NCBI GenBank assembly: GCA_014138645.1
Contig: JACJIB010000002.1
Location: 124,001-188,000, forward strand
DNA length: 64,000 nt
Direction of reading: 5' to 3'
DNA from: Methylorubrum thiocyanatum
GTDB taxonomy: Bacteria; Pseudomonadota; Alphaproteobacteria; Rhizobiales; Beijerinckiaceae
In this document: piece by piece, positions 17,410 to 31,300 of the stretch
Numbering within the stretch: position 1 is the first letter of the stretch
Layout: each line of letters begins with the position of its first letter
Notes under the pieces: generated by a model
Databases searched by the model: none
Seen by the model: the letters and a program-made list of their open reading frames with translations, nothing else
What the model was told of the DNA's origin: nothing
Position numbers and translations under genes: made by a program

Positions 17410-17656
17410 GCGGATCACTCCCTCTCGTTGCACCGGTCCCGCCCCACCCCCGTCTCGGGCGATGCGTCGGCCACCGGCTCCATCGCCGCATTCGGCGGCC
17501 CTGACCATCCGTCATGGCGAGAACGTGGCGTGGGGCCGCACCTGTCACGTGAAATTTCGGTCATGTCCCGGCGCGCGGCGGTCGCACCTCAGCGCCGCGC
17601 GCCCTCAGGTGCGACACCTTGCATCGCCTCGGGCCGCCCCGGATCGTCTCCGGTCG

Positions 17657-17989
17657 TCAGTTGGCGTCCCAGTTCCAGTCGCCGTAATCTGGCTCGCGGC
17701 AGCGATAGCCGATCGGACATTGCGGGTTGTCGCGGGTGGGGACGAAGCGCAACTCGGCGATCTCGGCGAGGTCGCAGAAGCTGCGGTCACGCACGAAGCG
17801 TTCGGGCGGGCGCCCGCCGAAGCCGAGCGTCACCGCGCCCTCCGCCTTCACGATGGCCATCGCCTCCGCACAGGTCGGGCGCGCCGACTGCGTGCGCGGC
17901 TGGGCGAAGGCGGGGTCGTGGGCGAAGGGCGACGCCAGAAGGGGCGCCAGTGCCGAGCCGAGAACGGCGAGGGTGACAGGTTTCATCAC
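17657..17989 (-). CDS. Hypothetical secreted protein, cysteine-containing
   Basis: 110 residues. A signal peptide is evident (MMKPVTLAVLGSALAPLLASPFAHDPAFAQ, cleavage likely after AFA). The mature part has four cysteines (in RPTCAEAM, DRSFCDLAE, NPQCPIGYRC), suggesting two disulfide bonds in the periplasm. The C-terminus is aromatic and acidic (EPDYGDWNWD). No family name is recognised. It lies downstream of nothing on its strand, with a 247-bp gap to the SbmA-like gene. Confidence 0.6.
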   Translation of the reverse strand: MMKPVTLAVLGSALAPLLASPFAHDPAFAQPRTQSARPTCAEAMAIVKAEGAVTLGFGGRPPERFVRDRSFCDLAEIAELRFVPTRDNPQCPIGYRCREPDYGDWNWDAN

Positions 17990-18410
17990 GCAGGTACGGC
18001 CGACGGCCGATCGCGGCCGCCAAGCTTGACCATGGCAGGTTCCATCTGCGGCGGGAAGGGGTTGCCGTGCCTGTGCCGCATTCCCGGCGTCTACCCTGGC
18101 AGGCGGGCCACGGCGGGGCCTCGCGACCGGCCTGTCGTGGCGCGCTGTCCGATGGACGCGTGGGCGCCGCTGAAGCCTCGAGCGAGGGCTGATCGACGGC
18201 TTATCGAGGACTTGGCGATCGGCCGATTTTCCGGCATCTCGGTTAACAAACGATGACCGCCTTCGCGGGTGATGCGGCCGGCTCGGCCGCCGGATGTGCC
18301 AACGGGTGTGCGAGGGGCGTGCCGCGCGATGCGGGCGGCCTCAGGTCGAGGATGCGGCCGAGCGTGCAACCGCCCGGCGAGGTTTCGAAAAGGTCGTCTC
18401 GGACGCTAGG
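17990..18410. other. Intergenic region between two divergent envelope-protein genes
   Basis: About 420 bp at normal GC. Divergent promoters for the genes at 17989 (minus) and 18411 (plus) must lie here. I could not identify convincing promoter boxes, RNA genes or repeats. Confidence 0.4.
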
Positions 18411-19109
18411 ATGACGATGTCGGGAGCACAGACCGAAGGGGCAGCGACGGGGCCGATGACCGCGGATGTCATGCCGGATACGGGCGGAGCCGGTGCGCCG
18501 CGGGACGCCTCCTCCGCGGCGCTGTCGCGGCGTCTCGCCATCCCGGTGATCCTCGCCGCGGGCTGGGGCGCCCTGTTCGCCTATACCCTGATCGTGCTCA
18601 CCGACGACGGACCCGTGGCGGCCTCCGCCGGGCCGACCCGATTCGTCGCGACCGAGGGCATCGACGTTCCGGAGGTGCGCCTGCCCGAGCCGGAGCGTAA
18701 GGCTGCGCCCGCCGCCGGCCCGGCGCGGGTGCTGACGGTCGCCGCGCCTGCTCCGCCCCTGGAGACGGTCGTGCCCCCGGCCGAGCCGCGGCCCGCCGCA
18801 CCGCTGGTGGAGCGCGCCGCCTTCGTCGGCATCTGGGGACCGAACGCGGTCGCCTGCGGCCAGCGCCAGCGCCGACGCGGTTTCCTGCCCGCGACGATCA
18901 CCGAGGACGGCGCCAAGGCCGGGCGCACCGTCTGCCGCTTCCGCAACAACCGCCGCGAGGGCAGCGCCTGGACCATGGCCGCCGATTGCAGCGAGCGCGG
19001 CCGCCGCTGGACCTCCCAGGTCCGCCTCCTCGTCGAGCAGGACCGCCTCACCTGGACGAGCGGGAAGGGCCAAGCGAACTACATCCGCTGCGGGCGCCGA
19101 TCCGACTGA
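18411..19109 (+). CDS. Hypothetical membrane-anchored protein with periplasmic domain
   Basis: About 232 residues from ATG 18411 (a second ATG at 18417 is equally possible). One transmembrane segment lies at about 45-65 (IPVILAAGWGALFAYTLIVL). A Pro/Ala-rich linker at 75-135 leads to a C-terminal domain of ~95 residues with FVGIWGPNAVACGQR, GFLPATITEDGAKAGRTVCRF, AWTMAADCSERGRRWTSQVRL and LTWTSGKGQANYIRCGRR. The four cysteines in this domain suggest disulfides in the periplasm. This domain recurs in hypothetical proteins of Rhizobiales; the function is unknown. Confidence 0.65.
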   Translation: MTMSGAQTEGAATGPMTADVMPDTGGAGAPRDASSAALSRRLAIPVILAAGWGALFAYTLIVLTDDGPVAASAGPTRFVATEGIDVPEVRLPEPERKAAPAAGPARVLTVAAPAPPLETVVPPAEPRPAAPLVERAAFVGIWGPNAVACGQRQRRRGFLPATITEDGAKAGRTVCRFRNNRREGSAWTMAADCSERGRRWTSQVRLLVEQDRLTWTSGKGQANYIRCGRRSD

Positions 19110-19113
19110 GCGC

Positions 19114-20040
19114 TCAGGCGGCCTCGTCGGCTGCGATGAAGCGCGGCCGCAGCGCCCCGGCCCGGAAGACGACTTGCTCCGGCACGAAACGCCACAGGCG
19201 CTCGGCGCCCGCGATCGTCTCGGCCTCGGCCGGATCGAGCACGACCTCCGCACGCCCGCTCATCTGCAGCAGGTCGCCGGTGGCGAAATCGGGGAAGACG
19301 AGCCCGGCACGCGGGTTCGCCAGCAGATTGCCCAGCGTGTTGAAGAAGCGGTTCCCGGAATAGTCGGGGATCGTGAGGGTGCCGTCCGCGCCGATCCGGA
19401 CGAAGCCGGGCGGCCCGCCCCGGTGCGAGACATCGACCTGCGGCGCGCCGCCGACGCGATCGACGAAGCTCGCGACGAAGAAGGTGTCGGAGGCCGCGAC
19501 GAAGGCCCGCGCCGCCGCATCGAGCCGCTGCGACAGGACTGCCGCCGATTGTTGCGCCGGCCCGCCCTGCGCCGGCACCGCGTGCCGGACGCGGATGTAT
19601 TTCGGGCAGTTCCCGAAACTCTGCTCGACGCGGATCGTGAAGCCTCCCGTACCCGCGCGTTCGACGACGCCGTTCAGGCGGTTGCGGCGGCGCGACGCCA
19701 ACTCGATCCCGAGCAGCGCGACGCCGTCCCCGTCCTCCAGCCCGGCCTCGGCCGGATCCTCGGGCACGCGGCTCCCCTCCACCCGGAGATGGTGCGGGTC
19801 GGATGCGCGGAGGAAGCCCGGGGCGCCGTCCCGCAGCGTCGCCCAGGGGCGGTCCTCCCGGTCCACGCTCCCGATCACCGCGAAGGACAGGAGCGGGAAG
19901 AACGCTTGGTGCTGCTCGATCAGGTGATCGCGGATCACCCTCGGGCCGAGTTCCGCCATCCGCCCGGCAAGGCCGATGCTCTCTTGTATCGCCACCTCAC
20001 CCCGGTGCCAGGGCGAGGACGGCCCCTGCTGCGCGCTCAT
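19114..20040 (-). CDS. Pyridoxamine-5'-phosphate-oxidase-fold flavin oxidoreductase family protein
   Basis: 308 residues. The C-terminal 160 residues show the split-barrel FMN-binding fold ([73 protein letters not shown]). The N-terminal half repeats a weaker version ([33 protein letters not shown]). Proteins of this two-barrel type are found near glutathione transferases and reductases. The start overlaps the GST stop by 4 bp (20037-20040), so both are one translational unit. The reaction is unknown. Confidence 0.82.
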
Positions 20041-20663
20041 GCCGGGCCTCCCGCCGCGTTGAGGCCGACGGGCGAGGCCGGGAGCGCGACGAAGCCGGGC
20101 AGCGCCTCGATCCGGGCGAGCCAGGCGCGGACATGGCGGTAGGGCGCCAGATCGACGTTCCCCTCGGGCGCGGCGGCGATGTAGCTGTAGAGCGCCACGT
20201 CGGCAATGGTCGGGCGCTCCGCGGCGATCCAGTCGCGGGAGGCCAGTTCCGCATCGATCAGCCCCAGGATCCGATGGGCACGGGCGATCACCTCCTCCGC
20301 ATCGAACCGCGCGCCGAACAGCGTGACGAGGCGGGCGGCGCAGGGGCCGAAGGCGATGGGACCGGCCGCGACCGAGAGCCAGCGCTGCACCCGCGCCGCC
20401 CCGTCCGCATCCTCGGGCAGCCAGTCGGTGCGGCCGAGCTTCTTCGCGAGGTAGACGAGGATGGCGTTGGAATCCGGCACGATGGTGCCGTCGTCGTCGA
20501 GGACGGGGACCTGCCCGAACGGGTTGAGTGCCAGGAAGTCCGGCGCGCGGTTCTGGCCGCCGGCGAGATCGACCTCGACCGCCTCGTAGGGCTGGCCGAT
20601 CAGCGACAGGAACAGGCGCGCCCGGTGGGCATGGCCCGAGAGCGTCAGGCTGTAGAGCTTCAT
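20037..20663 (-). CDS. Glutathione S-transferase
   Basis: 208 residues. The N-terminal thioredoxin-like domain has [32 protein letters not shown] and the cis-proline and glutathione-binding [29 protein letters not shown]. The C-terminal helical domain follows with [24 protein letters not shown]. The family conjugates or removes glutathione from electrophiles. It is translationally coupled to the downstream flavin-fold protein. The LysR gene starts 145 bp away in the opposite direction and is the obvious candidate regulator. Confidence 0.9.
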
Positions 20664-20807
20664 CGCATCATCTCCTCTGGGCCGCAGGTTCGGCCGTGGG
20701 GAGGATCAGACTATTGATGCCTTGCCGGGTGAACCGGCGTTGTAGGTAAGCGACTGTTGCGTGAAGCGGAATAATCGCCACTCTGTTCGCGGCAGGGAGA
20801 CGGCGCG

Positions 20808-21716
20808 ATGGATCGGCTTCAGGGGATGCGGGTGTTCGTGCGGGTCGCCGAGAGCGGCGGCTTTGCCGGCGCGGCCCGGGCGCTCAACATGAGCCCGCCC
20901 GCGGTGACGCGGGCGGTGGCGGCGCTCGAAGCCGCCATCGGCGCGCGGCTCCTCATCCGCACCACCCGCTCGGTGAAGCTCACCGAGGCGGGTGCCCGCT
21001 ATCTCGAGGATTGCCGCCGGATCTTTTCGGAGCTTGCTGAGGCCGAGGCCGCTGCGGCCGGCTCGACCGCCACGCCCACCGGCACCCTGACGCTGACGGC
21101 TCCCGTGCAGTTCGGGCGGCTCTACGTGCTGCCCGTGGTGACCGACTACCTCACCCACCATTCCGCGGTGGCCGTGCGGACGCTGTTCCTCGATCGGATC
21201 GTCAACATGGTCGAGGAGGGCATCGATGTCGGTGTGCGGATCGGACACCTCGCCGATTCCGGGCTCACCGCGGTCCGGGTCGGCAGCGTACGCCGGGTCG
21301 TGTGCGCGGCGCCGCGCTATCTGGAGCGGCACGGCATGCCGACGGCCCCGCGCGACCTGCGCGCGCATGCGGTGATCGGCTCATCGAACCCCGGCAGCCT
21401 GTCGGAATGGCGGTTCGGGCGCGAGCAGCGGACCGCCGTTGCCGTCCAGTCCCGGCTCACCTGCAACACCGTGGATGCGGCGCTCGCCGCGGCCGTGGAG
21501 GGCTGGGGGATCGCGCGGCTCCTGTCCTATCAGGTCGCGCCCGCCCTGGCCGATGGCCGCCTGCGCTTGCTGCTCGAGGAGCACGAGGCGGCGCCCGTTC
21601 CGATCCACGTCGTGAGCCCGGAAGGGCGGCGGGCCCCGGCCAAGGTGCGGGCCTTCGTCGATCTCGCCGCGACGCGGCTGCGGGCCGACCCGCGGGTGAA
21701 CCCGGCCGCCGCGTGA
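20808..21716 (+). CDS. LysR-family transcriptional regulator (divergent from the GST gene)
   Basis: 302 residues. The N-terminal winged helix-turn-helix is clear (MRVFVRVAESGGFAGAARALNMSPPAVTRAVAALEAAIGARLLIRTTRSVKLTEAG). The substrate-binding domain follows from about residue 90. This is the AaeR/PecT-like subgroup by its 'GTLTLTAPVQFGRLYVLPVVTDYL' and 'EGIDVGVRIGHLADS' segments. Divergent transcription from the GST-flavoprotein pair suggests it controls them, as LysR regulators usually do. It converges with the CysJ-like gene. Confidence 0.92.
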   Translation: MDRLQGMRVFVRVAESGGFAGAARALNMSPPAVTRAVAALEAAIGARLLIRTTRSVKLTEAGARYLEDCRRIFSELAEAEAAAAGSTATPTGTLTLTAPVQFGRLYVLPVVTDYLTHHSAVAVRTLFLDRIVNMVEEGIDVGVRIGHLADSGLTAVRVGSVRRVVCAAPRYLERHGMPTAPRDLRAHAVIGSSNPGSLSEWRFGREQRTAVAVQSRLTCNTVDAALAAAVEGWGIARLLSYQVAPALADGRLRLLLEEHEAAPVPIHVVSPEGRRAPAKVRAFVDLAATRLRADPRVNPAAA

Positions 21717-21758
21717 GGCGGCCGGTATGGTCCCCGCAGGCGTCGTCAGTACGCGTCG

Positions 21759-23366
21759 TCAGTACACGTCGGCCTGGTAGCGCCCGGCCTTCTTCAGGGC
21801 GGCGAGATAGGCGACCGCCTCGTCGGGGTTCTTGCCCCCGAACTGCGCGGCGACGTCGATGATCGCCCGCTCCACGTCCTTGGCCATGCGCTTGGCGTCG
21901 CCGCAGACGTAGAAGTGGGCGCCGCCCTCCAGCCACTTCCACAGCTCGGCGCCGTTCTCGCGCATGCGGTCCTGGACGTAGGTCTTCTCCTTGCCGTCAC
22001 GCGACCATGCGAGCGAGAGCCGGGTCAGCACCTTGTCGTCCTTCAGGCCGTTCAGCTCGTCCCTGTAGAAGAAGTCGGTCGCCTGCCGCTGGTGGCCGTA
22101 GAACAGCCAGTTGCGGCCGGGCGCCTTCGTCGCCGCGCGCTCGCGCAGGAAGGAGCGGAACGGGGCGACGCCGGTGCCGGGGCCGCACATGATCACGTCC
22201 TTGGAGGCATCCTCCGGCAGGGCGAAGCCGTGCGCCTTCTGGAGATAGATCTTGACCTTCGTCTGCTCCGGGAGACGTTCGCCCAGATGCGTGGAGGCGA
22301 CGCCGAGGCGCAGCCGCGAGCGATGATTGTAGCGCACGGCGTCGACCGTCAGCGAGACACGGCCGACATCCATCTTCGGCGAGGACGAGATCGAGTAGAG
22401 CCGCGGCTGCAGCTCGTCGAGCGCCTCCAGAAACACCTCGGCGTCGGGCCGGGCGCCGGGGAACTTGTGGAGCGCGCCGAGCACGTCGAGATAGGCGGCA
22501 TCGCCGTCCGGATCCTCGCCCGCGGCCAGCGCCTGCGCCTTCTTGCGCGCCTCGCCCGAGGTCAGGAGCGAGAGGAGCTGGTAGAGGTTGTCCGGGGCCG
22601 CGCCGAGGGAATAGTCGGTCAGCAGCCGGTCGCGCAGGGTCTTGCCGCCGATCTTGCGCTCGGGGCGCGTGCCGAGTTCGGCGATCACCGCATCGACCAG
22701 GGCCGGGGCGTTGGCGGGGAACAGCCCGAGGGAATCGCCGGCCTCGTAGATGATCGGCGTGCCCGTCAGGTCGATCTCGATATGCCAGGTCTCCTTCTCG
22801 CCGCCCGGGGCGTTGAGGCGCGTACGCGACAGGAAGGTCGCCTCGACCGGGTTCTCCCGGCAGAAGCCCAGCGGCCCGAGTTCCGGCTCCTTCTTCTCCG
22901 AAGCGACGGCCGCATCCGCCTTCGGAGCCGCCGCGCCGCCCGAGGCGCCGAACTCCTCGTCGAGCTTCTTCAGCATCCGGAGCGTTTCCTTGCCGCCGGG
23001 CTGGCAGAGGTTCAGCCGCTCCTCGTTCTTGAGGAAGATCGCGTTGGCGTAGTCGGCGCAGTTGTAGCCGCACTGGCCGCAATCCTGCTGGGCCATGGCG
23101 GCCATCAGCTTCTGCGGCTCCGAGCGGTCCTTGGCGATTGCCATGCGGTCGTTGATCGGCATCGACGGGTCGTGCCAGGGCGCGTCGTCGTTGTCGGCGA
23201 GCTTCGGACCCGTCGAGGGCGCTTCGCCGGGCGCGAGCGCGGTGGCGCCCTCGACCGCCGGGCCCAGCAGCGCGGCGAAGTAGCCCGACAGCCAGGAGCG
23301 CTGGTCGGCGGTGAACGGGGCGCTCTCGGGGATGAGAACGAGCGGGGGCGCGACGTGCTGGGTCAT
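21759..23366 (-). CDS. CysJ-like NADPH flavoprotein reductase with N-terminal Fe-S domain
   Basis: 535 residues from ATG 23366, whose ATGA overlaps the stop of the NirA-type gene. The N-terminal ~150 residues hold a cysteine motif C96-x2-C99-x3-C103 with C121, a probable 4Fe-4S site, in place of the flavodoxin domain of true CysJ. The rest is a ferredoxin-NADP-reductase module: FAD-binding (RLYSISSSPKMD, GVASTHLGERL) and NADPH-binding (VIMCGPGTGVAPFRSFLRER, NWLFYGHQRQATDFFYRDEL, YVCGDAKRMAKDVERAI, C-terminal aromatic VY). Its place after nirA suggests that it delivers electrons to the siroheme enzyme, but a sulfite-reductase role cannot be excluded. Confidence 0.88.
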   Translation of the reverse strand: MTQHVAPPLVLIPESAPFTADQRSWLSGYFAALLGPAVEGATALAPGEAPSTGPKLADNDDAPWHDPSMPINDRMAIAKDRSEPQKLMAAMAQQDCGQCGYNCADYANAIFLKNEERLNLCQPGGKETLRMLKKLDEEFGASGGAAAPKADAAVASEKKEPELGPLGFCRENPVEATFLSRTRLNAPGGEKETWHIEIDLTGTPIIYEAGDSLGLFPANAPALVDAVIAELGTRPERKIGGKTLRDRLLTDYSLGAAPDNLYQLLSLLTSGEARKKAQALAAGEDPDGDAAYLDVLGALHKFPGARPDAEVFLEALDELQPRLYSISSSPKMDVGRVSLTVDAVRYNHRSRLRLGVASTHLGERLPEQTKVKIYLQKAHGFALPEDASKDVIMCGPGTGVAPFRSFLRERAATKAPGRNWLFYGHQRQATDFFYRDELNGLKDDKVLTRLSLAWSRDGKEKTYVQDRMRENGAELWKWLEGGAHFYVCGDAKRMAKDVERAIIDVAAQFGGKNPDEAVAYLAALKKAGRYQADVY

Positions 23367-25168
23367 GCGGCGGCCTTGAGGGCGGGTTGTTCTTCGGCGG
23401 CGTCGCGCAGGGCTTCGGGGCCGGTGCGCGCGGTGAAGGCCTGGAAGCTCTCCTCCGGGCCCTGGCGGCGGGCGAGATAGGCGTTGAGCAGGGCCTCGAC
23501 GCGGGTCGGCACGTCCTCGGCCTTCACCGCCTTCCAGATCTCGGTGCCGATCTTCGGGTTCTCGGCGAAGCCGCCGCCGACCACGACGTCGTAGCCCTCG
23601 ACGGTGTCGCCCTCCTCCGAAACGACGACCTTGGCGCCGATGAGCCCGATATCGCCGATGTAGTGCTGGGCGCAGGAATGGTGGCAGCCGGTGAGGTGGA
23701 CGTTCACCGGCACGTCGAGGGCCGGCACGGTCTGCTCGACATGGTCGGCGATGATCATCGCGTGGCCCTTGGTGTCGGAGGCCGCGAACTTGCAGCCGCG
23801 GGCGCCGGTGCAGGCCACGAGGCCCGAGCGGATGCCGGCGGCCTTCACCGTGAGCCCGAGCGCGAGCACCCGGGCCTCGACCTCGGCCACCTTGGCGTCC
23901 GGCACGCCGGAGAAGATGAAGTTCTGCCACACCGTCATGCGGATCTGGCCGTCGCCGCATTCCGCCGCGATCTTCGCCAGCCCGCGCATCTGGTCTGTGG
24001 TCATCTTGCCGACGGGGAGCACCACGCCGACCCAGTTCAGTCCGGGCTGGACCTGGGCATGGACGCCGACATGGCTGAAGCGATCGGTGGGCTTGCGCGG
24101 GGCGACATGGGCGGCGTCGACCCGGTCGAGCTTGCGCCCGAGCTTCTCCTCGACGGCGGCGATGTACTTGTCGAAGCCCCAGGCATCGAGGACGTACTTC
24201 ATCCGGGCCTTGTTGCGGTTGGTCCGGTCGCCGTTCTCGATGAAGACCCGGATGATCGCGTCGGCCACGCGATTGCAGTCCTCGGGCTTGAGGACGATCC
24301 CGGTGTCGCGGGCCAGATCCTTGTGGCCCGAGATGCCGCCGAGCACGAGGCGCATCCAGACGCCCGGCGCGACCGCGGCGCCCTCCAGCACCTGGATCGC
24401 CTGGAAGCCGATGTCGTTCGTCTCTTCGAGCGCCGGCATCACGCCGCCGCCGTCGAAGGAGACGTTGAACTTGCGCGGCAGCCCGTAGAGCGAGCGGTCG
24501 TTCAGGATCCAGTTGTGCCAGGACTTGGTGAGCGGACGGGTGTCCAGCAGTTCCTGCGCGTCGATGCCGGCGGCGGGCGAGCCGGTGACGTTGCGGATGT
24601 TGTCGGCGCCCGCGCCCTGCGCGGTCAGGCCGAGATCGATCAGCCCGTCGAGGAAGGGCTGGGCGTGCTCAGGCGCGATCTCGCGCACCTGCAGGCCCGC
24701 GCGGGTGGTGACGTGGCTGTAGCCGCCGCCATGGGCGTCCGCGAGGTCGGCGAGGCCGGCGAACTGCCAATGCTGCAGGATGCCGTTCGGAACCCGGATC
24801 CGGCACATGTAGGAGGTCTGGGTCGGCGCGACCCAGAACATGCCGTGGTAGCGCCAGCGGAAATTGTCCTCGGGCTTGGGCTGCTTGCCCGTGGCGGCCT
24901 CCGCCTTCAGGCGGTTGTGGCCGTCGAACGGATTCTCGGCGCGCTTCCACTTCTCCTGCTCGCAGAGCTTGCCGCCTTCCTTGACGGTGCGGTCCTGCGC
25001 CTTGATGTGGATCGCGTCCGGCCCCGTGGGCTCGGCCGGCGCGCCCGCCGGAGCCTGCCCCAGGGCGAGGCCGCCGGTCATCCGGGCGGCGGCGATGCCC
25101 GAGGCGAAGCCTTCGAGATACCGCTTCTGCTCGGCGTTGAATTCGTCTGCCATCGCTGCCTCACTCAC
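23363..25168 (-). CDS. nirA: Ferredoxin-type nitrite reductase (NirA family, siroheme protein)
   Basis: 601 residues (an ATG five codons in, at MADEF, is an alternative start). The two nitrite/sulfite-reductase half-domains are visible: DNFRWRYHGMFWVAPTQTSYMCRIRVPNG with GGGYSHVTTRAGLQVREI, and RFSHVGVHAQVQPGLNWVGVVLPVGKMT. The cluster and siroheme ligands are CTGARGCKF (C-x5-C) and CHHSCAQ (C-x3-C) near residues 455-500. NirA reduces nitrite to ammonium with six electrons. It lies between the nitrate-transporter genes and the CysJ-like reductase, with 4-bp overlaps on both sides (25165-25168 and 23363-23366). That context favours nitrite over sulfite as substrate. Confidence 0.9.
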   Translation of the reverse strand: MSEAAMADEFNAEQKRYLEGFASGIAAARMTGGLALGQAPAGAPAEPTGPDAIHIKAQDRTVKEGGKLCEQEKWKRAENPFDGHNRLKAEAATGKQPKPEDNFRWRYHGMFWVAPTQTSYMCRIRVPNGILQHWQFAGLADLADAHGGGYSHVTTRAGLQVREIAPEHAQPFLDGLIDLGLTAQGAGADNIRNVTGSPAAGIDAQELLDTRPLTKSWHNWILNDRSLYGLPRKFNVSFDGGGVMPALEETNDIGFQAIQVLEGAAVAPGVWMRLVLGGISGHKDLARDTGIVLKPEDCNRVADAIIRVFIENGDRTNRNKARMKYVLDAWGFDKYIAAVEEKLGRKLDRVDAAHVAPRKPTDRFSHVGVHAQVQPGLNWVGVVLPVGKMTTDQMRGLAKIAAECGDGQIRMTVWQNFIFSGVPDAKVAEVEARVLALGLTVKAAGIRSGLVACTGARGCKFAASDTKGHAMIIADHVEQTVPALDVPVNVHLTGCHHSCAQHYIGDIGLIGAKVVVSEEGDTVEGYDVVVGGGFAENPKIGTEIWKAVKAEDVPTRVEALLNAYLARRQGPEESFQAFTARTGPEALRDAAEEQPALKAAA

Positions 25169-26385
25169 GCTGCGAGGGTTTTCGGGGCCGGGCCGAACAT
25201 CAGGTCGTCCCGGTCGTCGGGGGAGAGCGGCGCGCCGGAGCGGATCAGCTCCTTGCAGCGCGCCTGCTCCGAGATGTCGCCGACGAAGACGGCTCCCGCG
25301 AGCCGGCCGTCGGCGATGATCAGCTTGCGGTAGAGCCCGGCGGCGGCGTCATGCATCACCACCGCCTCGGCGCCGTCCGGCGTATCGACCACGCCGGCCG
25401 AGAAGACCGGCAGCCCCGACACCTTCAGGCTCGTGGCAAGCGACGTGCCGGGATAGGCGGCCGCCTCGCCGACGAGGTGTCGCGCCAGCACCTCGGCCTG
25501 CTCGTAGGCGGGCTCCACGAGGCCGTAAACGACGCCCCTGTGCTCGGCGCATTCGCCGAGCGCATGGATCGCCGGATCGGAGGTCGTCATCCGGTCGTCC
25601 ACCGTGATGCCGCGCGCGCAAGCGAGACCGCAGGACTGCGCCAGCGCCGTCGAGGCACGGATGCCGACCGACATCACCACGAGGTCGGCGGGGATCACGC
25701 TGCCGTCCTTCATCCGCAGCCGCTCGACCTTGCGGTTGCCCTCGATCGCCGCGGTGTCGGCCGAGAGCACCACCTTGACGCCGCGGGCCTCCATCGCCGT
25801 GCGCACGAGGCGGGCGGCGGCGTGGTCGAGCTGGCGCTCCATCACCCGGTCCATGACGTGGACCAGCGTCGTATCGACCCCGAGCCGGGCGAGCCCGACC
25901 GCGGCCTCCAGCCCGAGCAGGCCGCCGCCGATCACCACGGCCTTGGCATGCTCCACGGCGGCCTTTCGGATCGCCGCCACGTCGGCGAAATCGCGGAAGG
26001 TCAGGACGCCGGGCAGGTCGATCCCCGGCAGCGGCAGACGGATCGGCAGCGAGCCCACCGCCAGGACCAACCGGTCATAGGGCAGGACATGCGTCTCTCC
26101 GACCAGCGCGATGCGGTTGGCCCGGTCGATCTCGGTGACCGGCGCGCCGGTGACGAGGCGTAGCCCATGCTCCTCGTACCAGGAGAGCGGACGGAAGCCG
26201 CAGGCCGCCTCGTCCACCTCGCCGCCGAGCAGCGAGGAGAGCAGCACCCGGTTGTAGGCCGCCACCGGCTCGGCGCCGACCACCGTCACGTCGTAGCGGC
26301 CCGGCGCGCGCTCCGTCAGCCGCTCGAGGAAGCGGAGCGAGGCCATGCCGTTGCCGACGACGACGAGTCTGTCCTTCGCGCTCAT
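25165..26385 (-). CDS. NAD(P)/FAD-dependent nitrite-reductase-type oxidoreductase
   Basis: 406 residues, resembling the N-terminal flavoprotein part of NirB-type nitrite reductases. FAD-binding GNGMASLRFLERL at the N-terminus, YDRLVLAVGSLPIRLPLPGIDLPGV, the NAD(P)-binding AVVIGGGLLGLEAAVGLARLG, and the second FAD contact in IHALGECAEHRG are seen. It lacks the BFD-like Fe-S domain and the siroheme domain. It probably supplies electrons within the nitrate/nitrite system, either to NirA or to a nitrate reductase encoded elsewhere. The gap to nrtD is 24 bp, and the stop overlaps the start of nirA. Confidence 0.85.
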   Translation of the reverse strand: MSAKDRLVVVGNGMASLRFLERLTERAPGRYDVTVVGAEPVAAYNRVLLSSLLGGEVDEAACGFRPLSWYEEHGLRLVTGAPVTEIDRANRIALVGETHVLPYDRLVLAVGSLPIRLPLPGIDLPGVLTFRDFADVAAIRKAAVEHAKAVVIGGGLLGLEAAVGLARLGVDTTLVHVMDRVMERQLDHAAARLVRTAMEARGVKVVLSADTAAIEGNRKVERLRMKDGSVIPADLVVMSVGIRASTALAQSCGLACARGITVDDRMTTSDPAIHALGECAEHRGVVYGLVEPAYEQAEVLARHLVGEAAAYPGTSLATSLKVSGLPVFSAGVVDTPDGAEAVVMHDAAAGLYRKLIIADGRLAGAVFVGDISEQARCKELIRSGAPLSPDDRDDLMFGPAPKTLAA

Positions 26386-26409
26386 GGGTCCGTGATCCCC
26401 TTCACGAAC

Positions 26410-27204
26410 TCACGCGGCGAGAGCGGGCTTGGCGTGTCGGGCGTAGAGGAATTCCAGCACCGCGGCGCGGGCGTGGACGTAGGTGGCGTCCTCCACGAGG
26501 TCGAGCCGGCGACGGGGCCGCGCCAGCGGCACAGGCAGGATCTCGCCGATGGTGGCCGACGGCCCGTTCGTCATCATCACGATGCGGTCGGAGAGCAGCA
26601 CCGCCTCGTCCACGTCGTGGGTGATCATGATGACGGTGTTTCTGAGCCGCGTCTGGATCTCCATGAGCTGATCCTGGAGATGGGCGCGGGTCAGCGCGTC
26701 CAGCGCCCCGAACGGCTCGTCCATCAGCAGAACCGTCGGCTCCATGGCGAGCGCCCGGGCGATGCCGACGCGCTGCTTCATGCCACCGGAGATCTCCGCC
26801 GGACGCTTGTCGGCGGCGTGCATCATGTTCACGAGCGCGAGGTTGTGTTCGATCCACTGGGCGCGCTCGGTGCGGGTCTTCTTGCCCTTCGACACCTTGT
26901 CGACGGCGAGCGCCACGTTCTCGCGCACCGTCAGCCAGGGCAGGAGCGAGTGGTTCTGGAACACCACGGCGCGGTCGGGGCCGGGGGCGTTCACTTCCTT
27001 GCCGTCGAGCAGCACGCCGCCGGTGGAGGCCTTGAGCAGGCCGGCGACGATGTTGAGCACCGTCGACTTGCCGCAGCCCGAATGCCCGATGATCGAGACG
27101 AACTCGCCCTTGGCGATGTCGAGGTTCACGTCGCGCAGCACTTCCGACGTCTTGCCGCCGCGGCGGAAGGAGATGCCGACCTGGGAGAGGGAGAGATGGG
27201 CCAT
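26410..27204 (-). CDS. nrtD: Nitrate ABC transporter ATP-binding protein
   Basis: 264 residues. Walker A IGHSGCGKSTVLNIVAGLL, Q-loop VVFQNHSLLPWLTVRENVAL, signature EISGGMKQRVGIARALAM, Walker B VLLMDEPFGALD and switch His MITHDVDEAVLLSDRIVMM are all intact. The NrtD/CmpD/TauB-type sequence and the position after an NrtA-type binding protein and NrtB-type permease identify it as the ATPase of the nitrate importer. No C-terminal NrtA-like extension is present, so it is NrtD-like rather than NrtC-like. It lies 13 bp after nrtB. Confidence 0.92.
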   Translation of the reverse strand: MAHLSLSQVGISFRRGGKTSEVLRDVNLDIAKGEFVSIIGHSGCGKSTVLNIVAGLLKASTGGVLLDGKEVNAPGPDRAVVFQNHSLLPWLTVRENVALAVDKVSKGKKTRTERAQWIEHNLALVNMMHAADKRPAEISGGMKQRVGIARALAMEPTVLLMDEPFGALDALTRAHLQDQLMEIQTRLRNTVIMITHDVDEAVLLSDRIVMMTNGPSATIGEILPVPLARPRRRLDLVEDATYVHARAAVLEFLYARHAKPALAA

Positions 27205-27217
27205 GTGCGTGTGTCCC

Positions 27218-28078
27218 TCAGGCTGCGGAGGTGCCGCGGGTCACGAGCACGCCGACGCCGGCGACCAGCCGGTCGAGGACGAAGCCGATGAGCCCGACAT
27301 AGACGAGAGCGACGATGATCTCGCTGATGTGCGACGAGTTCCAGGCGTCCCAGATGAAGAAGCCGATCCCGACGCCGCCGATCAGCATCTCGGCCGCGAC
27401 GATGGCGAGCCAGGACAGGCCGACGCCGATGCGAAGACCGGTGAAGATGTACGGCGCCGCCGAGGGCAGCATGATCTTGTAGAAGAACTCGATCGGGTTC
27501 AGCCGGATGACCGCGGCGACGTTGCGGTAGTCCTGCGGAATGTTGCGGATGCCGACCGCGGTGTTGATGATGATCGGCCAGATCGAGGTGATGAAGATCA
27601 CGAAGATCGCCGAGGGCTGCCCGTCGCGGAAGGCGGCGAGCGAGAGCGGGAGCCACGCCAGCGGCGGGATCGTGCGCAGCACCTGGAAGATCGGGTCGAG
27701 ACCGCGCATCGCCCATTCGGACTGGCCGACCAGGGTGCCGAGCAGCACGCCGGCCACCACCGCCAGCGCGAAGCCCAACGCCACGCGCTGGAGGCTCGCC
27801 GAGATATGCCAGAACAGGCCCTTGTCGGTGCCGCCGTTGTCGTAGAACGGATCGACGATGATGTCCCAGGCCTCGGTCACGACGCGCGAGGGCGGCGGCA
27901 GGCCGGCGGTGGGAGAGGAGCACAGCACCTCCCACAGCAGCAGGAAGCCCGCCAGCACGACGAGCGGCGGCAGGACGCGGGCGGCGACGCCGCGCAGCCC
28001 GGCCAGGGTGATGAAGGGCGCGCGGGCCTTCGCGGAGGCGCGCGCGCGGGTTGCGGTGAGCGTTGCTCCGGTGGCCAT
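27218..28078 (-). CDS. nrtB: Nitrate ABC transporter permease
   Basis: 286 residues from ATG 28078, overlapping the nrtA stop by one base (TGATG). About six hydrophobic helices are visible, starting with VLPPLVVLAGFLLLWEVL. The permease EAA-loop region is AVIRLNPIEFFYKIMLPSAAPYIFTGLRIGVGLSWLAIVAAEML, typical of NrtB/CmpB/SsuC. It forms the inner-membrane channel with NrtD. The ~25-residue N-terminal extension is Ala/Arg-rich and cytoplasmic. Confidence 0.92.
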   Translation of the reverse strand: MATGATLTATRARASAKARAPFITLAGLRGVAARVLPPLVVLAGFLLLWEVLCSSPTAGLPPPSRVVTEAWDIIVDPFYDNGGTDKGLFWHISASLQRVALGFALAVVAGVLLGTLVGQSEWAMRGLDPIFQVLRTIPPLAWLPLSLAAFRDGQPSAIFVIFITSIWPIIINTAVGIRNIPQDYRNVAAVIRLNPIEFFYKIMLPSAAPYIFTGLRIGVGLSWLAIVAAEMLIGGVGIGFFIWDAWNSSHISEIIVALVYVGLIGFVLDRLVAGVGVLVTRGTSAA

Positions 28079-29370
28079 CACGCGACCTTCTTGATGCCGA
28101 GGCTGTTGAGGTAGGCGGCAGGGTTTTCGGGGTCGAAGACCTTGCCGTCGAACAGCGTCTCGACGCCGCGCGAGGTGGAGGTCGGGATCGCGGAGACGCC
28201 GAGCGCCTTGGCGGCCTCGCGCCAGAGATCCTCGCGGTTGACCTTGCCGATCAGCGCCTTGGTGTCGGTGGCCGCGTCGAACTTGCCCCAGCGGATGTCC
28301 TCGGTGAGGAACCAGAGGTCGTGCGACTGATAAGGATACGAGGCGTTGTCGGCCCAGAACTTCATGATGTGCGGGCTGTTCTCGACGACGCGGCCGGTGC
28401 CGTAGTCGAACTTGCCCTTCATCCGGTTGACGACGTCGGCCACCGGCACGTTGATCCACTGGCGCTTGGCCACGATCGCCGCCATCTCGTCGCGGTTCTC
28501 GGGCTTGTCGCACCATTGCTGGGCTTCCATCACAGCCATCAGCAGGGCCTTGGCGGCGTTGGGATACTTGTCGACCCAGGCCGCGCGCATGGCGAAGGCC
28601 TTCTCCGGGTGGTCCTTCCAGAGTTCGCCGGTGGTGATCGCGGTGTAGCCGATGCCCTGGTGGATGAGCTGCTCGTTCCACGGCTCGCAGACGCAGAAGC
28701 AGTCCATCGTGCCGACCTTCATGTTCGCCACCATCTGGGGCGGCGGCACGACGATGGTCTCGATGTCCTTGTCGGGGTCGATGCCGCCGGCGGCGAGCCA
28801 GTAGCGGATCCAGAGGTCGTGGGTGCCGCCGGGGAAGGTCATCGCGGCCTTCACCGCCTTGCCCGACGCCTTCTTGGCTTCGAGCACGGCTTTGAACGGC
28901 TTGGTGTCCAGCCCGATCTTGTGGTCGATATGCTCCTTGGCGATCGAGATGCACTGACCGTTCAGGTTGAGCCGGGCCATGATGTACATCGGCACGGGCA
29001 CGTTGTTCTGCGTCACCCGGCCGGCGGAGATCAGGTAGGGCATCGGCGTCAGGATGTGGGCGCCGTCGATGCCGTTGCCCTCGGAGCCGAGCACGAGGTT
29101 GTCGCGGGTGGTGCCCCAGCTCGCCTGCTTCAGAACCTCGGTCTCGGGCAGGCCGTACTTGGCGAAGATGCCCTTCTCCTTGGCGACGAAGAGCGGCGCG
29201 GCATCGGTCAGCGCGATGAAGCCCAGCTTGGCCCCCTTCACCTCCGGCCCCGCGCCCTGCGCGAAGGCACCGGCCGGCAGAGCGGCGCGGGCCGCACCCG
29301 CCAGTGCGAGCGCGGCGGCCGCCCCCTTGAGGACGCCGCGGCGGGTCGTGTTGCCCTGATCGATACTCAT
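28078..29370 (-). CDS. nrtA: Nitrate-binding protein of ABC transporter (NrtA/CmpA family), Tat-exported
   Basis: 430 residues from ATG 29370. A twin-arginine signal is clear (Arg10-Arg11 in TTRRGVLKGAAAALALAG). The mature protein has the NrtA/CmpA fold: KLGFIALTDAAPLFVAKEKGIFAKYGL, KQASWGTTRDNLVLG, IDGAHILTPMPYL, GGTHDLWIRYWLAAGGIDPDKDIETIVVPPPQMVANMKVGTMDCFCVCEPWNEQLI. It captures nitrate (or nitrite) in the periplasm for NrtB/NrtD. It is the first gene of the transport/reduction operon and has a structured 5' leader with a sigma-54 promoter. NasS further upstream is its cytoplasmic paralogue. Confidence 0.93.
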   Translation of the reverse strand: MSIDQGNTTRRGVLKGAAAALALAGAARAALPAGAFAQGAGPEVKGAKLGFIALTDAAPLFVAKEKGIFAKYGLPETEVLKQASWGTTRDNLVLGSEGNGIDGAHILTPMPYLISAGRVTQNNVPVPMYIMARLNLNGQCISIAKEHIDHKIGLDTKPFKAVLEAKKASGKAVKAAMTFPGGTHDLWIRYWLAAGGIDPDKDIETIVVPPPQMVANMKVGTMDCFCVCEPWNEQLIHQGIGYTAITTGELWKDHPEKAFAMRAAWVDKYPNAAKALLMAVMEAQQWCDKPENRDEMAAIVAKRQWINVPVADVVNRMKGKFDYGTGRVVENSPHIMKFWADNASYPYQSHDLWFLTEDIRWGKFDAATDTKALIGKVNREDLWREAAKALGVSAIPTSTSRGVETLFDGKVFDPENPAAYLNSLGIKKVA

Positions 29371-29400
29371 CCGTTCTCCGCTCCGGCGCGCTGCCTGCAC

Positions 29401-29510
29401 AAGAAAAAAGCCGCTGTCCGGGATCGCCTGCGCGATCGACATTCGTCGCGTGCGGGCAATCCGGATCAGCGGCTTTGCTGACGTTTTGGGTCCGTCATCG
29501 TTGGCGGGCC
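29401..29510 (-). promoter_or_regulatory. NasT (ANTAR) antitermination leader: two hexaloop hairpins plus intrinsic terminator
   Basis: Read on the minus strand. Hairpin P1 has arms 29510-29503 and 29496-29489 (6 of 8 positions paired, two C.A mismatches) around the loop AACGAT. A 6-nt linker follows. Hairpin P2 has arms GTCAGC (29482-29477) and GCTGAT (29470-29465) around the loop AAAGCC. Both hexaloops have A at position 1 and G at position 4, the signature of ANTAR-protein RNA targets. The terminator pairs AAAGCCGCTGATCCGG (29476-29461) with CCGGACAGCGGCTTT (29421-29407), followed by a T-rich tail to 29401. It shares bases with P2, so P2 and the terminator are mutually exclusive. NasT is encoded just upstream. 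Confidence 0.88.
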
Positions 29511-29524
29511 CGTGCGGGAACACT

Positions 29525-29540
29525 TGCAGGAGCCGTGCCA
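29525..29540 (-). promoter_or_regulatory. Sigma-54 promoter of the nrtA operon
   Basis: On the minus strand, TGGCACGGCTCCTGCA (29540-29525) matches the -24/-12 consensus TGGCACGRNNNTTGCW at all specified positions but one. The GG and GC dinucleotides have the correct spacing. Transcription would start near 29514, directly in front of the first ANTAR hairpin. Two TGGTGC half-sites (29651-29656 and 29659-29664) and a GTGC-GCT-GCAC dyad (29626-29636) upstream could be NtrC enhancer sites. That part is tentative. Confidence 0.8.
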
Positions 29541-29699
29541 ACTGCAGGACGCGCGCATCGCGGCCGTCGCGCCGGTGCGCAGAGCCATTTGCGGCGCGGT
29601 CCGCGCCCGAAAGCACAGCAGGCGCGTGCGCTGCACAAAAAATAGGCTGATGGTGCCGTGGTGCGCAGCCGAAGCCGGCGCGATGCGGCGGAACGGGGT

Positions 29700-30716
29700 T
29701 CAGCCGGCGATGGCCGCCGCGAAGATGTCGGGCCGATAGAGCGCCGCCGCCCGGTCCGCCGCGTCACCGCCGGGTGGGAGCTGCCCGCATGCAACCATCT
29801 GCGCGACCAGCCAGCGGGCCTGGGCCGGGTCCGGCCGGTGGGTCGCGGCGTCGAGGCGCAGATAGGCCAGGTTCACCCGCTCGGTGCCGTCGGCATCCAC
29901 GATCAGCGCGCCGCCGAGGGTGCGTGCGATGAGTGCCGCGTCGGAATCAAGCTCTGCCCGCTCGGCGAGCAGGCGGCTCAGCGCGTCGCGGTTGGCGAGA
30001 TCGGCGCACCAGAGCCCGGCCCGGTGGACCGCCCGCACCAGGGGAAGCGCGAAGTCGGCGCCCTCGGCGGGCAGGGCCAGCACCTTCTCCGGGCAATCGG
30101 GCGCGATCTCGCAGCCCAGCGCGGCGATGCGGCCGAGGCCGGCGGCGACGGCGACGCTGTTCCATGGGGCGCCGACGCAGAAGCCGTCGATGATCCCGCG
30201 CCGGAGCGCCTTCACCGTGTCCGGCGGCGGCACCACGACGAGGCGGATCACCGTATCGAGATCGAACCCGCCGAGCCCTGCGAACAGGCGGAGCTGGTAG
30301 GAGTGGCTGGAAAAGGGATGCACGGTGCCGATTGTGAGCGGCCGGCCCTCCGCGGCCCAGGCGCGCGCGACCCGGGCGAACGCTGCGGCCACGTCGCCAA
30401 GATCGTCGCTCGTCGGCGCCATCGCGCTCCAGAGCGCGTTCGAGACGGTGACGGCGTTGCCGTTGAGGTTGAGCGCCATCGGTATGCTCAAGCCGGCCTG
30501 CGGGCCGGACAGCCCCAGCGCGCTGGCGATGGCGAGCGGCCCCAGCATGTGCGCGGCGTCGAGATGGCCGAGCGCCAGCCGGTCGCGCAGGGTGGCCCAG
30601 GACGGCTCACGCGAGAGCGTGATCTCCAGCCCCTCGGCCCGGGCGAAGCCCAGCTCCGCCGCCGCGATCACGGGGGCGGCGTCGGTGAGGGGGACGTATC
30701 CGAGGGTGATCCTCAT
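29700..30716 (-). CDS. nasS: Nitrate/nitrite sensor NasS (NrtA-like, no signal peptide)
   Basis: 338 residues from ATG 30716, overlapping the nasT stop by 4 bp. It is a paralogue of NrtA (MRITLGYVPLTDAAPVIAAAELGFARAEGL, SREPSWATLRDRLALGHLDAAHMLGPL, VVVPPPDTVKALRRGIIDGFCVGAPWNSVAV) but begins without any signal peptide, as expected of a cytoplasmic sensor. In known NasS-NasT systems, NasS holds NasT inactive until nitrate or nitrite binds. NasT is then released and antiterminates the nas leader. The leader described at 29401-29510 lies directly downstream. Confidence 0.92.
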   Translation of the reverse strand: MRITLGYVPLTDAAPVIAAAELGFARAEGLEITLSREPSWATLRDRLALGHLDAAHMLGPLAIASALGLSGPQAGLSIPMALNLNGNAVTVSNALWSAMAPTSDDLGDVAAAFARVARAWAAEGRPLTIGTVHPFSSHSYQLRLFAGLGGFDLDTVIRLVVVPPPDTVKALRRGIIDGFCVGAPWNSVAVAAGLGRIAALGCEIAPDCPEKVLALPAEGADFALPLVRAVHRAGLWCADLANRDALSRLLAERAELDSDAALIARTLGGALIVDADGTERVNLAYLRLDAATHRPDPAQARWLVAQMVACGQLPPGGDAADRAAALYRPDIFAAAIAG

Positions 30717-31300
30717 CCGAGCAGGTCCGCCGCGGTGACGATCGCGCGGGCGATGTCGACGATCTTGCGCTTCTCGTTCATCGCCTGCCGCCGCAGGAGC
30801 TTGTAGGCCTCGTCCTCGCTCAAGCCCTTGCGCGTCATCAAGATGCCCTTGGCCCGCTCGATCAGCTTGCGGTCGGCGAGTTCGGAGCGGGCCTCGTCGA
30901 GTTCGCGCTGGAGCCGCGCGAAGGCGTTGAAGCGAAGGATCGCGATATCGAGGATCGGCCGGATCCGCTCGGAGCGCAGCCCGTCCACGACGTAGGCCGA
31001 GATGCCCGCATCGACCGCCGCCTGCATCATGGTCTGGTCCGAGCGGTCGACGAACATCGCCACCGGCCGCTCCGCCTGCCGGGACAGGCCCGACATCTGC
31101 TCCAGCACGTCCCGGCTCGGGCTCTCCAGATGGACCACGATCACATCGGGCTTGAGGTTCGCCACCCGCGCCTGAAGATCCGGCCCGTCGGGCAGGACGA
31201 CGACGCTGGCGACGCCCGCGGCGCGCAGGCCCTCCTCCAGGATCGCCGCGCGGGCGGTGCTCGGGTCGATCACGGCGACGGTGAGGCTGGTCTCGGTCAT
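30713..31300 (-). CDS. nasT: ANTAR-domain antiterminator NasT
   Basis: 195 residues. The N-terminal ~120 residues form a receiver-like domain (VAVIDPSTARAAILEEGLRAAGVASVVVL, KPDVIVVHLESPSRD, RPVAMFVDRSDQTMMQAAVDAGISAYVVDGL). The C-terminal ANTAR RNA-binding domain spans about 125-190, with LADRKLIERAKGILMTRKGLSEDEAYKLLRRQAMNEKRKIVDIARAIV including its conserved A-K-G-x-L-M and aromatic/Ala positions. It prevents transcription termination in the nrtA leader when freed from NasS. It is the first gene of the nasT-nasS unit; no promoter was assigned upstream. Confidence 0.93.
   Translation of the reverse strand: MTETSLTVAVIDPSTARAAILEEGLRAAGVASVVVLPDGPDLQARVANLKPDVIVVHLESPSRDVLEQMSGLSRQAERPVAMFVDRSDQTMMQAAVDAGISAYVVDGLRSERIRPILDIAILRFNAFARLQRELDEARSELADRKLIERAKGILMTRKGLSEDEAYKLLRRQAMNEKRKIVDIARAIVTAADLLG

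Follow-up and report, generated by a model that had tools for sequence, protein, structure and literature searches.

The nrtA operon in a 64,000-nucleotide stretch of Methylorubrum thiocyanatum DNA (hereafter the window) is preceded by a complete, ordinary and well-conserved NasT antitermination leader located behind a sigma-54 promoter, and the original prediction of such a leader was right. Antitermination at this leader is very probably controlled by the regulator NasT and the sensor NasS. The leader is a known kind of switch, and the surprise is found in its relatives, not in the window. The genes of the minus strand follow in the order nasT, nasS, control region, nrtA, nrtB, nrtC, NirB-like oxidoreductase, nirA and flavoprotein, and the control region contains, in this order, a conserved box, the -24/-12 promoter, hairpins P1 and P2, and a terminator. 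The features are as follows.

30713..31300, minus strand: nasT, with a receiver domain (Pfam, 30.9 bits) and an ANTAR domain (Pfam, 76.5 bits)
29700..30716, minus strand: nasS, NrtA-like nitrate sensor of 338 residues (Pfam NMT1_2, 210.6 bits)
29626..29647, minus strand: conserved upstream box GCCTATTTTTTGTGCAGCGCAC, a possible NtrC enhancer
29525..29540, minus strand: sigma-54 -24/-12 promoter TGGCACGGCTCCTGCA, with a predicted transcription start at about 29514
29488..29511, minus strand: ANTAR hairpin P1, loop AACGAT (29502-29497), with two C.A mismatches
29465..29482, minus strand: ANTAR hairpin P2, the putative antiterminator, loop AAAGCC (29476-29471)
29404..29476, minus strand: intrinsic terminator ending in TTTTTT, whose 5' arm includes the loop and the 3' arm of P2
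28078..29370, minus strand: nrtA, first gene of the operon, with its ATG at 29370 (Pfam NMT1_2, 371.9 bits)
27218..28090, minus strand: nrtB, nitrate ABC transporter permease (NCBIfam TIGR01183, 324.3 bits, cut-off 209.05)
26410..27204, minus strand: nrtC, nitrate ABC transporter ATPase (NCBIfam TIGR01184, 356.7 bits, cut-off 291.8)
25165..26385, minus strand: NirB-like NAD(P)H oxidoreductase (NCBIfam TIGR02374, 408 bits, under the cut-off of 578.35)
23363..25168, minus strand: nirA, assimilatory nitrite reductase (NCBIfam NF007126, 1059.9 bits, cut-off 523)
21759..23387, minus strand: sulfite-reductase-alpha-like flavoprotein, start tentative (NCBIfam NF004859, 925.6 bits, cut-off 432)

The start of nasS (30716) overlaps the stop of nasT. 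The gene coordinates agree with the earlier placement of nasS and nasT just upstream of the leader, and nrtA lies downstream of it. Pfam and NCBIfam scans of the genes on the 3' side of the leader (window positions 15298-29370) identified no catalytic subunit of nitrate reductase, which may be encoded elsewhere in the genome.

The original prediction placed a near-consensus -24/-12 promoter at 29540-29525, where it was found. The GG and GC of the element are ten bases apart, as sigma-54 promoters require. The element is the sole match to TGGCACRNNNNYTGCW in the 64 kb in a search permitting up to one mismatch; however, shuffled sequences average 1.49 matches per window, so chance could account for the promoter match by itself. 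The promoter scan returned no sigma-70 promoter. Both predicted hexaloops, AACGAT and AAAGCC, are present, each with A at position 1 (A1) and G at position 4 (G4). Folding and a covariance scan, which had been proposed as checks, recover the two hairpins. P1 and P2 together fold with -17.2 kcal/mol, compared to a shuffled mean of -11.4 kcal/mol, and three of 200 shuffles were as good. A covariance model (R2) was built for P1-P2 from 21 relatives, with the window's own clade excluded; it matched the hairpins at 53.2 bits (E 2.9e-13), and the next place in the 64 kb scored 20.0 bits. The P1-P2 linker has 5 nt (29487-29483), which is within the range of 5-12 nt in the eut leaders of Enterococcus faecalis (PMC3369931). 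The stretch from 29400 to 29482 folds with -45.4 kcal/mol, compared to -26.2 kcal/mol for shuffled sequences (z -5.7, none of 200 as good), and the predicted long terminator with a 5' arm built from the second hairpin is present. It is absent from the list of the simple terminator scan, whose permitted loop length it probably exceeds, and Rfam at its gathering cut-offs contains no family at the leader. The promoter, hairpins and terminator in combination are beyond chance.

P2 (29465-29482) and the terminator (29404-29476) overlap, and they are mutually exclusive because the 5' arm of the terminator contains the loop and the 3' arm of P2. Folding of transcript prefixes lengthened in 6-nt steps gave a defined order of events in silico: P1 is complete by +30 and P2 by +54, P2 stands until +102 (-42.6 kcal/mol), and the terminator replaces it at +108 (-54.7 kcal/mol). 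Since P2 is available from about +54 and the terminator forms after about +105, NasT would have that interval to seize P2. EutV is proposed to bind P1 and then P2, and the folding order of P1 and P2 in the window fits such successive binding (PMC8934654).

P1 of the window is weak. Its predicted energy is -8.1 kcal/mol, whereas the median of 35 relatives is -11.9 kcal/mol, and only two of the 36 hairpins are weaker. The suggestion that the two C.A mismatches might weaken P1 is therefore in agreement with folding in silico. As had also been suggested, such a P1 may depend more on NasT. Minimum free energy folding additionally pairs A1 of the loop with U6, which leaves four unpaired bases. These properties could indicate that P1 is decaying in this species and that the switch leaks or is in part constitutive. 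However, the C.A pair adjoining the closing pair is common to close relatives (the position is unpaired in six of 33 alignment rows, the window included), the loop letters are kept, and -8.1 kcal/mol of folding energy is retained. We consider decay of P1 unlikely.

The conservation of the leader was analyzed in 36 Methylobacterium loci, which comprise the window and the nasT neighbourhoods of 35 congeners. The -24/-12 element, P1 and P2 are all present in 36 of the 36 loci, and so is a terminator overlapping P2, once T runs of three are permitted. The P1 stem starts 10-14 nt past the TGC end of the -12 element in every locus, and P1 is therefore only a few bases away from the predicted transcription start. 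At the level of sequence, this spacing speaks against a transcription start that skips the hairpins, which had been named as an outcome contrary to the original prediction. All 36 loci have A1 and G4 in P1 and G4 in P2, letters that the search pattern required, and 19 have A1 in P2. A plain MAFFT alignment, covering 33 loci, shows positions 1 and 4 of P1 and position 4 of P2 as invariant, with A or G at position 1 of P2. Thus, the expected conservation of the hexaloop A and G in related leaders holds for P1 and for G4 of P2, but not for A1 of P2. Pairing is preserved in 92.2% of the alignment cells of P1 and P2, compared to 24-61% when one strand is slid by 1-3 columns, and in 92.3% of the terminator cells (33 loci), compared to 32-62% in slid controls. 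Two-sided changes are few and all of them are in P1 (four pairs, 12 cells; 51 of 500 shuffles give as many pairs), and the covariation in P1 and P2 is modest.

The leader and NasT co-occur across the genus. A second covariance model (R1), trained on 26 Methylobacterium loci with the window's own sequence among them, was used to search 111 Methylobacterium genomes, which include those 26 loci: 110 contained a match, 109 contained NasT, and 108 contained both. The only genome lacking a leader, G257, has a completeness of 70%, and the genomes without detected NasT, G013 and G228, are divided into about 420 and about 730 contigs, respectively. The R1 match of G013 is only of the relocated nrtA form described below. 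In the whole genome of the window, R1 has a single strong match (64.8 bits; next 22.1 bits), and nasT is the only ANTAR match. A single regulator faces a single leader.

The shared architecture bears on two other explanations. The hairpin near 29460 could be the terminator of nasTS, with nrtA transcribed from a separate promoter and the hexaloops being coincidental. The terminator is indeed positioned downstream of nasS, so that read-through from nasTS would also end there. Nevertheless, the promoter precedes the terminator at near-fixed spacing in all 36 loci, conservation is stronger in P1 and P2 than in the loop region of the terminator, and relocated nrtABC operons far from nasTS share the promoter and hexaloops, which makes this explanation very improbable. 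An attenuator that is not run by NasT (with a leader peptide or a small-molecule riboswitch in its place, for instance) deserves hardly any credence, even though terminator and antiterminator pairs are generally common, since a leader peptide has no room before P1, a few bases past the predicted transcription start, no Rfam riboswitch family reaches its cut-off, the A1/G4 hexaloops fit the ANTAR rule (PMC3369931), and NasT is encoded next door.

The properties of the regulator and sensor are consistent with control of the leader by NasS and NasT. Of the NasT relatives listed at 80% identity or more, every one with an organism name belongs to Methylobacterium. NasT was aligned to EutV (6wsh) and NasR (4akk). 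Six of the seven RNA-contacting residues of EutV (R142, K143, K149, E160, Y164 and M172) are identical in NasT (R144, K145, K151, E162, Y166 and M174), and the seventh, K147, corresponds to R149, a change from lysine to arginine (PMC8934654). NasS shares 33% identity with the NrtA region across 251 residues. The NMT1_2 match of NasS starts at the extreme N terminus, which leaves no room for a signal peptide, and, judged from its sequence, NasS is a cytoplasmic NrtA-like sensor. In Paracoccus, the NasS-NasT complex comes apart in response to nitrate or nitrite, the leader RNA of nasA is bound by NasT (PMC3795266), and mutations of the leader hairpins have been tested (PMC5424462). The recognition rule for ANTAR proteins specifies hexaloops with A1 and G4 (PMC3369931).

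Based on the anatomy of the leader and on analogy with these systems, from which we infer activation by NtrC, release of NasT from NasS, and binding and antitermination by NasT, a two-input switch responding to nitrogen limitation and nitrate can be proposed. Nitrogen limitation would lead an enhancer-bound activator, probably NtrC, to fire the sigma-54 promoter, and the RNA would begin near P1. Without nitrate, NasS would hold NasT. P2 would form first, and the emerging 3' arm of the stronger terminator would then allow it to capture the loop and the 3' arm of P2, so that transcription would end about 35 nt before the start codon of nrtA. In the presence of nitrate or nitrite, NasS would free NasT, which would bind the hexaloop of P1 and then that of P2. 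P2 held by NasT would block the terminator, and the genes from nrtABC to nirA would be transcribed.

The sigma-54 promoter is probably activated by NtrC, as judged by analogy, and the box at 29626-29647 may be the NtrC site. The core of the box, TTGTGCANNGCA, occurs within 260 nt upstream in 34 of the 36 loci when up to one mismatch is allowed, compared to none of the 36 after one shuffle each; the box was counted in the same sequences that revealed it. The core is located 86-99 nt upstream of the -24 element in 30 of the 36 loci, which is a usual distance for an enhancer. The box has the form GCCT-N5-TTGTGCAGCGCAC, is located some 98 nt from the -24 element on its upstream side in most congeners, and has one exact match within the window, where 0.06 are expected. 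Known NtrC patterns were compared to the 36 upstream regions. The Paracoccus pattern (up to two mismatches) matches 25 of them, compared to 8.4 in shuffles, and the enterobacterial pattern matches one, compared to 0.5 in shuffles; the region of the window is matched by neither. The loose pattern GCAC-N5-9-GTGC matches five regions, compared to 1.6 in shuffles, with that of the window included.

The leader resembles several characterized systems. The nasF leader of Klebsiella oxytoca, the target of NasR, also has two hairpins and is under nitrate control, and the SELEX preference of NasR for A as the first and G as the fourth loop base (PMC7496416) agrees with the loops of the window. However, NasR senses nitrate itself through its NIT domain, whereas here NasS would sense nitrate and NasT would bind the RNA. 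The nas leaders of Azotobacter vinelandii and Paracoccus denitrificans share the NasS-NasT regulators with the window, and the Paracoccus leader, which is bound by NasT, is located between nasTS and the nas genes (PMC3795266, PMC5424462). It precedes nasABGHC, whereas the first genes in the window are nrtABC. The eutP leader of E. faecalis, controlled by EutV, is similar in its A1/G4 hexaloops, in the inclusion of P2 in the terminator stem, and in the contact residues of its regulator (PMC8934654), but it controls ethanolamine genes instead of nitrate genes. EutV is switched by EutW phosphorylation, whereas NasT would be switched by release from NasS. Sequence, neighbourhood and conservation support the original reading of the two hexaloops as an ANTAR target of the NasR and NasT type, in which P2 competes with the terminator.

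Leaders of this type extend beyond the genus. The pattern scan identified leader-like stretches in three loci from other families of the order (L069, L070 and L071) and no acceptable leader in two others (L067 and L068). Eighty NasT loci from named genomes, seven of them from Methylobacterium, were scanned on the strand that encodes nasT. A leader had to contain a -24/-12 element, a pair of hexaloop hairpins sharing their letters at loop positions 1 and 4, and a terminator that overlaps the downstream hairpin. When all letter pairs were tried, A/G passed in 45 loci (four from Methylobacterium), G/G in one, and the other 14 pairs in none. No A/G leader passed on the nasT strand in 35 of the 80 loci, including Bradyrhizobium, the leader of which may be located elsewhere. 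The three Methylobacterium loci without an A/G leader comprise two with the G1 variant described below and one with a P1 mismatch. A stricter scan, in which the two loops were allowed to differ and the best candidate was taken, gave 24 loci: 16 with A/G in both loops, two with A/G followed by G/G, and six with other letters. The P1-P2 linker is 25-31 nt long in nine mostly rhizobial loci (L126, L129, L136, L137, L140, L142, L146, L147 and L170), compared to 5-12 nt in eut leaders, and several of these linkers hold an extra hairpin (for example, GAGCGC...GCGCTC).

Seventeen of the 36 Methylobacterium leaders (L039-L053, L055 and L057) have G at position 1 of the P2 loop (GAGGCC, once GAGGCT). 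In all 17, the oxidoreductase and nirA are next, and no nrtABC match is present in 4.5 kb, whereas nrtABC is first after the leader in all 19 loci with A1. The GAGGCC loop is predicted to form a G1-C6 pair, which leaves a four-base loop and gives a hairpin energy of -9.2 kcal/mol, compared to -7.0 kcal/mol predicted for P2 of the window alone. Either letter pairs with U in the terminator, as A-U or G-U. The EutV structure paper proposes that A1 is not itself contacted and may act against pairing across the loop, and that tetraloops may be excluded by M172 (PMC8934654). The G1 loops thus bear on the reason for the conservation of A1 in ANTAR targets, for which the explanation in that paper is so far a proposal. 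A tree of the G1 set requires two changes and is compatible with a single origin, and the 17 leaders may represent one lineage and hence one event or few. Two NasT columns, 157 and 44, divide the G1 and A1 sets. Column 157, in the loop between α-helices 7 and 8 of the ANTAR domain, contains L, M, I or V in the 17 G1 loci and R or A in the 19 A1 loci; because the G1 set is possibly one lineage, this split is only a lead. G1 loops were also observed in P2 of L243, L244 and L248.

The nrtA gene was searched for in 23 genomes, 17 of the G1 set and six picked via a second-type R1 leader. A single nrtA at E 1e-80 was found in 14 genomes, and nrtA was absent in nine, all of the G1 set. All eight G1 genomes still having nrtA have it behind a relocated leader, a count free of leader-based choice. 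The relocated leaders (L189-L194, L196 and L231-L237) contain the promoter and two A1/G4 hexaloops in 14 of 14 cases. Thirteen of them lack a run of four T residues in the 118 nt that follow, and the remaining one, L193, has such a run but no real pairing with P2. In an alignment of the relocated leaders, the block from the promoter to P2 is conserved, whereas the sequence between P2 and the start codon varies. A duplicated nrtA2 was considered and rejected: each genome has a single nrtA at E 1e-80, and the block moved. At these leaders, NasT may act on Rho-dependent termination, translation or RNA stability; the counts of C and G after P2 gave no clear support for a Rho site. We tentatively suggest, as a possibility that we hold to be somewhat less than even, that NasT targets in Methylobacterium have split into two rule-breaking forms, the G1 P2 loops and the terminator-less nrtA leaders. 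The latter raise the question of whether NasT regulates without an intrinsic terminator, and a genus with both forms provides natural experiments around the clean case of the window. Three further secondary R1 matches (L238, L239 and L240) look like chance, and their stretches contain no nrtA. The sole nrtA at G018:C1:4049706-4050973 is in two overlapping pieces in different frames, which indicates a frameshift or an assembly error.

Two Rfam families resemble the leader of the window. The consensus structures of P11 (RF00625) and narK RNA (RF03032) contain a -24/-12 element and two A..G hexaloops, and that of P11 also contains an overlapping terminator. Both models aligned full-length to positions 29410-29552 with 21.3 bits each, which is below their gathering cut-offs of 70 bits (P11) and 43.2 bits (narK RNA). 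At E<=0.1, narK RNA matched 24 of 61 genomes, in 12 of them at a nas or nrtA leader by nasT and in four at a relocated nrtA leader; it exceeded the cut-off in none of the 61 genomes and had no match in the window's own genome. Other narK RNA matches (L195, L198 and L200) show no such leader by eye. The genome-wide search with P11 in relatives was unspecific, with 13 matches in 12 of the 61 genomes at E<=0.1 and none at the leaders that were read. In the opposite direction, R2 recovers P11 and narK leaders weakly: it gave 16 matches at E<=0.5 in 37 loci of the two families, four of which overlap the leader (best of these E 0.0097). The full A/G layout is present in 25 of these 37 loci (L249-L285), ten have none, and two have other letters.

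Both P11 and narK RNA resemble NasT leaders. All seven P11- or narK-matched genomes that were also searched for NasT contain it, compared to 38 of 150 across that NasT search, and in all seven nasT has a narK RNA match on its own strand no more than 2 kb away (that of G112 is below the cut-off). P11 precedes NirB in four of the four downstream genes read (two assigned by NCBIfam, two by their N terminus). The narK RNA precedes a NarK transporter in four cases (one assigned by NCBIfam, three by the N terminus), NirB in one, and a NasS-like gene in one. The NasT hairpins of the narK leader of B. diazoefficiens have already been published as predictions (PMC6759348). The P11 small RNA of P. aeruginosa is described as regulating a nitrogen assimilation operon and driving avoidance behaviour in C. 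elegans (PMC12080996). We found no statement that P11 is a NasT leader in the openly licensed PMC literature, a collection that mostly excludes subscription papers. Judged from its sequence features and neighbours, P11 may be the terminated NasT leader of nirB, in which case its abundance would be predictable from the supply of nitrogen and nitrate. Antitermination of nirBD in P. aeruginosa was reportedly described by Romeo in 2012. Between P1 and P2, several P11 leaders have an additional hairpin, the hexaloop of which is also of the A..G type.
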